Positions 18,411-20,655 of a DNA stretch of 39,064 nucleotides are shown here, piece after piece. Below the pieces are notes generated by a model. That model saw nothing but the letters and a program-made list of their open reading frames with translations. It was not told the origin of the DNA and did no database searches. Source of the DNA: Hydrogenispora sp. (GTDB lineage Bacteria; Bacillota; UBA4882; UBA10575); contig DUQQ01000040.1 in the NCBI GenBank assembly GCA_012837705.1, forward strand, positions 1-39,064, given 5' to 3'. The position numbers were made by a program, and so were the translations under genes. Numbering within the stretch: the first letter of the stretch is position 1; the number at the start of each line of letters is the position of its first letter.

Positions 18411-18606
18411 TACCCTTTTTACTCCGGGGGTAAACATTTGCCGCCATATGGCATAGGATAAAGCAAGTTGTGGTCGTTAGTAAAAATCATACGGTAAAAA
18501 ATTCTCTCCTTTGGCATAAATCTTTTCAGAACGGAACATAATAAAACTGAAATCCACCCTTTAGTTTACAAGGATGGAGAAGATTGAATTTAATGGAGGG
18601 AATATA

Positions 18607-19725
18607 ATGGCGAAAATGAATGAAATGGTGTCGAGTGTAGATTTTATGCCGAACAGCAGCAATCAAGTTGTGCGATCCAAACCGCGCTATTCGGAGAATG
18701 AAAACGAAATGATCTACGAAAACTGGTGGAATCCAAAATTGCGGAAAGAACTATCCCGCCGTTTTGGCCGTAAAATTTCGGCGCTGAGGAGCCAATTTTG
18801 CCGGATCCTGAAGGAAAAGGGGATTTCGAACACGGATTATTACAAGATGATGCGCGCCAAGTACCAGACGGCCACACCCAAAGAAATATTATCCGATGAC
18901 GAAGATCAGTTAATTCTGGAAATCTTCGCGAAACATCAGGTTTCAGGTGGGACCAGAAATGAAGCTTGTGCCGAGTTACAACGACTAATGCCGAAACCAA
19001 TCAGTGAAGCGGCTTTAAAACTCCGTTTTTATCGCTTGGTCCAAAAAAGAGGGTTAAGTGATGAAAAAATTAATAGTTTGGGTCGGGATGTTCTGAAACG
19101 ATCCGGGATCATCATTCCCGACGCCCCCCTCTTAAACGGAAAAGAGATTCCTCCGCTGGGGATAAAGAGCACGGAGCCGGAGATAGAAGGGGCAAACCAG
19201 AGCTTGCCGAAGGAAAAAAAGGCCCTGTCGGAAACAACGCTGGTCGATAATCTCGGGAAGAAGCCTGGTTACGTACATAGTATTACACCCGAGAGTGAGG
19301 AGCAAAAGTCTACTTTCCTGTATCAGCTGGCCCATCTACCGGAGACCATCCAAAAGCTAGAGGAGCGGGTTAATAAGCTGGAAGCAGCGCAAAAACGGCA
19401 GTTGGATCTGCGGGGGTTTATCGAACATCTCTTGGCTGTTGAACGGGATCTGAAACAAGAAGAAAAGTTTTTGGCGGAGATCGACCGTTTGGTGGCTGAG
19501 AACCAAAGCCTGACTGAGCAATTTGAGCGCGAACGGACACGGCTGGCGAAACGGGAAAAAGAATTGACCGAGATCTACGAACTACTCAATGGTGCGCTCA
19601 ATGATTTTATGCACTTAGAAAGTGTTGCGAAACTGGCCTCCCTGGGCGATTTTATTCATCGGATGGAGATTACTGTCGATCAATTTGGCAATGTGATGAA
19701 GAGCAGGCGAATTCAAGGTGCCTAA
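18607..19725 (+). CDS. SANT/Myb-like DNA-binding protein with C-terminal coiled coil
   Basis: This 372-residue protein has no close relative that I can name. Two Myb/SANT-like helical repeats are suggested: about 26-75 (YSENENEMIYENWWNPKLRK then SRRFGRKISALRSQFCRIL) and about 93-150 (LSDDEDQLILEIFAKH, then AALKLRFYRLVQKRG). The second resembles the repeat of the Bacillus prespore regulator RsfA. A variable linker follows, then a long charged coiled coil from about 245 to 345. The ATG at 18607 has GGAGGG 6 bases upstream; an earlier ATG at 18574 has the ribosome site too close. It is monocistronic, between the thrB terminator and a tRNA promoter. A sporulation-linked or nucoid role is possible but not shown. 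Confidence 0.7.
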   Translation: MAKMNEMVSSVDFMPNSSNQVVRSKPRYSENENEMIYENWWNPKLRKELSRRFGRKISALRSQFCRILKEKGISNTDYYKMMRAKYQTATPKEILSDDEDQLILEIFAKHQVSGGTRNEACAELQRLMPKPISEAALKLRFYRLVQKRGLSDEKINSLGRDVLKRSGIIIPDAPLLNGKEIPPLGIKSTEPEIEGANQSLPKEKKALSETTLVDNLGKKPGYVHSITPESEEQKSTFLYQLAHLPETIQKLEERVNKLEAAQKRQLDLRGFIEHLLAVERDLKQEEKFLAEIDRLVAENQSLTEQFERERTRLAKREKELTEIYELLNGALNDFMHLESVAKLASLGDFIHRMEITVDQFGNVMKSRRIQGA

Positions 19726-19835: not shown

Positions 19836-19912
<77 letters not shown>

Positions 19913-20579: not shown

Positions 20580-20655
20580 AGGGGAGTAGCTCAATTGGTA
20601 GAGCGTCGGTCTCCAAAACCGGTGGCTGCGGGTTCGAGTCCTGTCTCCCCTGCCA
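20580..20655 (+). tRNA. tRNA-Trp (anticodon CCA)
   Basis: This is a 76-nt cloverleaf with acceptor stem AGGGGAG/CTCCCCT, discriminator G and an encoded CCA end. The anticodon loop CTCCAAA carries CCA at 20613-20615. The D arm contains AGCTCAATTGGTAGAGC and the T arm GCGGG-TTCGAGT-CCTGT. Confidence 0.97.

Follow-up and report, generated by a model that had tools for sequence, protein, structure and literature searches.

The locus and its neighborhood

The DNA analyzed here, which we refer to as the window, is a 39,064-nucleotide stretch from Hydrogenispora sp., a member of a less studied spore-forming class of the Bacillota. The gene of interest and the features next to it are as follows.

18607–19725, plus strand: gene for a double helix-turn-helix (HTH) protein with a predicted coiled coil; open reading frame for 372 amino acids plus stop
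18595–18600, plus strand: Shine-Dalgarno-like GGAGGG preceding the 18607 start, in an arrangement that recurs in orthologs
19836–19912, plus strand: tRNA-Pro(ggg), a downstream neighbor kept in the class

An alternative in-frame ATG is found at 18574, ahead of the 18607 start. The gene is the single match in its own genome. Upstream of it are rsmB, ilvE and thrB. On the downstream side, a TIGR04086 membrane-protein gene and a pduL-type gene have the genes for tRNA-Pro(ggg) and tRNA-Trp(cca) (20580–20655 of the window) between them. This neighborhood is strikingly stable, with the two tRNA genes following the gene across much of the class. The tRNA-Pro(ggg) gene was downstream in 15 of the 19 ortholog loci scanned, and the membrane-protein gene was the next gene in 17 of 23 loci compared. 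The tRNA is probably not part of the system to which the window gene belongs. Three of the four loci lacking tRNA-Pro (L046, L049 and L051, in genomes G022, G019 and G014) are second copies that have diverged and lie away from the tRNA neighborhood.

Conservation and distribution

The open reading frame at 18607–19725 is a real, conserved gene, because it is present in 27 of 29 genomes of the class, 85 alignment columns are invariant, and its first repeat has accumulated no amino-acid change relative to three close relatives. All 17 genomes of the order carry it, and four genomes (G014, G019, G022 and G028) have two copies each. Our ortholog alignment (A1) contains 27 of 30 open reading frames (L035, L036 and L045 were excluded), with 44–90% identity to the window protein. 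Three others were set aside before this selection: L012 and L013, which share contigs with L046 and L051, and L003, which has a frame broken by a stop. The latter ortholog (1460–2575 of its locus, genome G003) is split by one in-frame TAG and is either a pseudogene or the product of a sequencing error.

Constraint differs markedly along the protein. In comparisons with the three close relatives (L002, L052 and L004), dN was 0 in repeat 1 at a dS of 0.41–0.50, and dN/dS was 0.04–0.08 in repeat 2, 0.04–0.06 in the C-terminal part, and 0.34–0.47 in the linker.

The gene had been predicted to be lineage-specific, which proved too narrow. When the A1 profile was compared with 398 genomes sampled across the phylum, there were matches at E 0.001 or better in 48, comprising 16 in the class and 32, one of them weak, outside it. 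The match in G211 (E 6e-4), which lies inside a 1403-residue frame in a genome without SpoIVA, is probably false and was retained in these counts. Most relatives outside the class retain the C-terminal signature (LGDF...VD+FGNV), the N-terminal Myb-like domains, or both. We grouped 26 of them into three families, DBL (9), F53 (12) and F59 (5), and aligned each with A1 using hhalign (E 5.4e-37, 2.9e-29 and 8.1e-15, respectively).

Domain organization and predicted structure

The protein can be divided into five parts, all encoded on the plus strand.

18670–18870, plus strand: repeat 1 (residues 22–88), Myb/SANT-like HTH by its predicted helices and its homology to repeat 2
18874–19104, plus strand: repeat 2 (residues 90–166), RsfA/GerR-like HTH by a below-cut-off NF010535 match and hhalign similarity to RsfA (E 0.0018)
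19114–19293, plus strand: variable linker (residues ~170–229), probably disordered, with low pLDDT and relaxed dN/dS
19336–19614, plus strand: long modeled helix (residues 244–336), a probable dimerizing coiled coil
19615–19713, plus strand: invariant C-terminal motif LESV.KLASLGDF...E.TVDQFG.V (residues 337–369), from the alignment and common to out-of-class relatives

The original prediction, made from the window sequence, had proposed two Myb/SANT repeats followed by a long coiled coil. Modeling agrees with it as to a long helix and to HTH-like repeats in the N-terminal half, whose absence would have counted against the proposal. An AlphaFold2 model built with A1 has eight helices in the N-terminal half, arranged as two HTH-like units at residues ~30–88 (helices 30–39, 43–53, 57–71 and 75–88) and 96–166 (helices 96–113, 117–127, 134–148 and 152–166), for which block pLDDT was mostly 85–95. 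Residues 178–229 are of low confidence, and two further helices span 244–336 and 341–371. The pTM of the whole model was 0.27, and therefore only its local structure was used. Modeled alone, the N-terminal part again gave eight helices at the same positions (mean pLDDT 84.4, pTM 0.48). The 93-residue helix is consistent with a coiled coil, as are many sub-threshold matches of the protein to coiled-coil profiles; searching PDB sequences with a profile of the orthologs gave one coiled-coil match (E 0.068). Profile alignment showed the two repeats to be homologs (hhalign E 7e-6; score 32.0, compared to 19.7 for the best of 100 column shuffles).

Structure comparison shows, for these models, a helix-turn-helix of some generic kind; it is the links between sequences that carry the Myb label. 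Foldseek searches with the full and N-terminal models returned nothing at E 0.001 or better. With VIA-align, repeat 2 was placed on TrpR, Reb1, MntR and Myb2, among others (Z 5.2–5.9; 5.2–5.7 for Myb2 and Reb1), and the top rows for repeat 1 were RcsB and NarL-type HTH domains (Z up to 6.9), all within the range that the tool itself rates uninformative.

The rows for repeat 1 raise the alternative that the N-terminal half is another helical DNA-binding fold, for example a NarL/GerE-type HTH or a tyrosine-recombinase core-binding domain. The latter would also account for the matches, with E of at most 0.1 (0.00048 for the best), to XerC in 13 and to XerD in 11 of the 27 orthologs. These matches, at about residues 43–124, run across both repeats without a catalytic domain behind them, and for these reasons we rejected a XerC/XerD identity. 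Because the Z values are uninformative and the second repeat of one relative passes a curated Myb cut-off (see below), we consider a different fold highly improbable.

Relationship to RsfA and GerR

Repeat 2 had been predicted to resemble RsfA. Profile searches bore out a weak similarity to GerR and RsfA, and failed at every curated cut-off. The best of these matches was to the GerR model (NCBIfam NF010535; E 0.0016, residues 88–150), with 18.4 bits against a cut-off of 257 bits. The RsfA model (TIGR02894) gave 11.9 bits against a curated cut-off of 126.45 bits. Alone, the window protein matched no Pfam, NCBIfam or PHROGs family above cut-off (E 0.01 for PHROGs). Pfam Myb was absent from its matches at E 10 and did not figure among the 25 families listed across 27 orthologs. 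RsfA-family proteins have a single N-terminal Myb-type HTH and the window protein has two homologous repeats. Since it falls short of both the RsfA and the GerR cut-offs, we treat it as a distant relative of these proteins and not as a member of either curated family.

Firmer links to RsfA were obtained through the out-of-class families. Against a reference of 16 RsfA-family proteins, hhalign gave E 1.3e-5 over 182 columns for DBL, 1.9e-5 for F59, and 0.0018 for A1, and none of 98 shuffles equaled any of these scores; F53 alone gave E 0.012. Among three F59 proteins scanned singly, L103 matched GerR (E 6.6e-6) and RsfA (1e-5), L104 matched RsfA (E 6.7e-5) and GerR (3e-4), and L105 matched neither at E 0.1. 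Repeat 2 of the DBL protein L102 passes the Pfam Myb_DNA-binding cut-off (35.3 bits against 24.4), the only one of 10 out-of-class relatives scanned to do so.

The C-terminal ends can also be compared. The DQFGNV motif that follows the long helix occupies the same place as the D-x-NGNLE-like motif at the C-terminus of RsfA. Aligned directly with RsfA, the C-terminal end of A1 gave E 0.37 and the motifs were not aligned; in the alignment of DBL with RsfA, the RsfA end FKMDxNGNLE aligns with the DKFGNV motif. Because the linking families DBL and F59 match RsfA, DBL from end to end with the C-terminus covered, the window protein belongs to a wider group that probably includes RsfA.

True RsfA, scoring above the TIGR02894 cut-off, was found in none of the 29 class genomes and in 11 of the 398 phylum genomes. 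There was no overlap between these 11 and the 48 carriers of the gene; with only about 1.3 overlaps expected, mutual exclusion of the two is not significant.

A putative forespore-type promoter element upstream of the gene

One further feature lies ahead of the gene.

18514–18543, plus strand: promoter-like GCATA-N18-CATAATA (−35 at 18514–18518, −10 at 18537–18543), following a pattern found in orthologs

Promoters recognized by sigma-G and sigma-F have a GYWTA-like −35 and a CANNHTA-like −10 separated by 18 bases, and the element resembles promoters of this class. In C. difficile, the sigma-G and sigma-F consensus types are reported to resemble one another closely, as well as their B. subtilis counterparts (PMC3789822).

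Our first, strict pattern matched upstream of 13 of 29 orthologs. It was loosened to GYWTA-N18-CANNHTR after inspection of distant orthologs, and this pattern matched in 28 of 29 (families f1, 14/14; f2, 1/1; f3, 1/1; f5, 12/13), compared to 7 of 2900 dinucleotide shuffles and 1 of 214 upstream regions of other open reading frames in the same loci. The 29 loci counted include L003 and L045 and exclude L035 and L036, for which a start was not assigned. In condensed form the ortholog element reads GYATA-N18-CANAATR. Because many f1 sequences are closely related, the weight of this result lies in f2, f3 and f5. Both the −35 and −10 sequences and the 18-base spacing fit the forespore class in these 28 orthologs, and recognition by a forespore sigma factor is predicted. 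Among the three diverged second copies, two keep the element. Folding of 29 ortholog leaders revealed no common 5'-leader hairpin.

Out of sample, the loosened pattern was present upstream of 8 of 23 out-of-class relatives, always with a spacing of 18 (shuffles, 20/2300). The 23 are from 31 fetched loci (L082–L112), with starts assigned by eye, and several of the eight that carry the pattern are closely related to one another.

Elsewhere, the pattern gave mixed results. It showed no genome-wide excess over the control in the window's own genome and no match in three sigG upstream regions. The relaxed pattern was found upstream of 8 of 13 genes of one small acid-soluble spore protein set (SASP-b; shuffles, 45/1300) and of none of 17 genes of another (SASP-a). 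Some forespore genes therefore lack the element. The SASP-a upstream regions (within L142–L158) have a long conserved stretch of their own (GTTTAT..., GGAAAACTAGTTTTA, GCTTGGGAAAG), unlike the pattern of the window gene. A match to the strict pattern was also seen at 1501–1530 of L139 (G000:C78:37232–37261), inside the preceding gene and about 34–63 bases upstream of a gene that is presumably YtfJ/GerW.

These results bear on a second alternative, that the protein, with its Myb-like repeats, regulates genes by binding DNA but has no particular link to the forespore, acting generally or in the mother cell from a promoter of another sigma factor. The lack of genome-wide enrichment and the absence of the element from all 17 SASP-a upstream regions would fit this, as would the mother-cell role, under sigma-E, of the RsfA relative GerR (PMC517825). 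Against it are the fit of the −35, −10 and spacing to the forespore type, and the SASP-b matches. A sigma-A reading was set aside: it would pair a TTGGCA box with CATAAT across a 20-base spacer, and the f5 orthologs lack that box. Since, in addition, nearly all carriers of the gene have SpoIVA (see below), we regard regulation outside the forespore as unlikely.

Association with sporulation genes

The window's own genome encodes SpoIVA (705.2 bits) and sigma-G (492.7 bits) and has four SASP matches. Across the phylum sample, SpoIVA was found in 46 of 48 carriers of the gene and 290 of 350 non-carriers (Fisher p 0.018, ignoring relatedness). The two carriers lacking a SpoIVA match are G211 and G017, the latter a fragmented assembly with a sigma-G match of 506.9 bits. 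Conversely, two class members lack the gene. G026 has sigma-G and no SpoIVA match in its 470 contigs. G018 has SpoIVA, with no sigma-G match above 232.9 bits, and is a real exception to the co-occurrence of the gene with SpoIVA.

The original prediction of a sporulation regulator gains support from the profile comparisons, the linking sequences and the conserved forespore-type element, through which we infer the function. A sigma-F promoter is reported to drive expression of RsfA, which together with sigma-F switches spoIIR off (PMC3416734); deletion of rsfA in B. subtilis is reported to reduce sporulation by about 30% (PMC13118988).

A proposed role in the forespore

We favor, as the probable explanation, that the window protein is a dimeric ancillary regulator of forespore transcription that acts like RsfA, in lineages without RsfA. 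Transcription would start from the promoter-like element of sigma-G or sigma-F type at 18514–18543, presumably in use in the forespore. The long C-terminal helix would dimerize the protein and place two double-HTH arms on DNA. By comparison with tandem Myb proteins, repeats 1 and 2 may jointly read an extended operator, with repeat 1, unchanged among the close relatives, probably making sequence-specific contacts. The invariant C-terminal motif may bind a partner that is itself conserved, possibly RNA polymerase or the sigma factor. This would create a feed-forward loop by which the protein, by analogy with RsfA, would tune the forespore program, activating or repressing part of it.

This proposal draws on the conservation of the gene and its domains, the homology of the HTH repeats, the relation to RsfA and GerR and the Myb match of L102, together with the promoter element in orthologs (28/29) and out-of-class relatives (8/23), the SpoIVA, sigma-G and SASP genes, and the presence of SpoIVA in 46 of 48 carriers. 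Counted against it are the lack of a genome-wide excess, the mixed SASP sets, the sigG regions without a match, G018, the failed cut-offs, and the loosening of the pattern after orthologs had been seen.

Much of this context would serve equally well for a protein that packages the spore chromosome, a nucleoid-associated protein with a double HTH binding widely and a coiled coil bridging DNA, and a long helix bearing two repeats of DNA-binding type would suit such a role. RsfA, the closest relative of known function, is described as a gene-specific regulator (PMC3416734), and the frozen repeat 1 indirectly suggests reading of specific bases, which makes packaging quite improbable. The related suggestion of a chromosome regulator found nothing in its favor beyond the DNA-binding domains.

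The regulator we propose, perhaps switched on in the developing spore, may also bear on how forespore control evolved. RsfA and GerR are described as lacking conservation in clostridia and as a Bacilli-specific amendment (PMC3416734), and as less conserved among spore-formers (PMC4383634). We suggest tentatively that they form the Bacilli arm of a larger superfamily, made up of spore regulators with Myb-type domains and coiled coils and distributed across deep Bacillota, and that its form in this class has a duplicated HTH together with a nearly invariant forespore promoter. If so, ancillary feed-forward control in the forespore is older than the Bacilli and is not an amendment specific to them. 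RsfA relatives under a conserved promoter of forespore type, in genomes where RsfA itself is missing, would date this layer of control to an earlier stage of spore evolution. No description of this group was found in the titles and opening abstracts of the open-licence papers searched. The gene offers a directly testable regulator in lineages known here from metagenome-assembled genomes alone.

Comparison with known systems

Jumbo phages such as phage G are reported to encode Myb-type HTH factors related to RsfA-like factors of firmicutes (PMC7824862); by this description they would resemble the window protein, which matched no PHROGs family at E 0.01. With tandem Myb/SANT domains (PF00249, PF13921) it would share tandem three-helix repeats, and L102 passes PF00249 in repeat 2, whereas no Pfam Myb family matches the window protein at E 10. 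GerR (YlbO; NF010535) is its best named profile match, over repeat 2, but GerR belongs to the mother cell and sigma-E, and the window protein scores far below the GerR cut-off.

The comparison with RsfA (TIGR02894) is the most extensive. RsfA has one HTH repeat where the window protein has two and a much longer invariant C-terminal region, and the gene and its relatives sit in genomes other than those holding RsfA. The predicted layout of the window protein, with an N-terminal Myb-type HTH, a probable coiled coil and a short C-terminal motif, follows the order seen in RsfA. There is profile similarity to RsfA in repeat 2 and, through the DBL group, over the full length, and the window gene, judged by its upstream sequence, is probably also expressed in the forespore.
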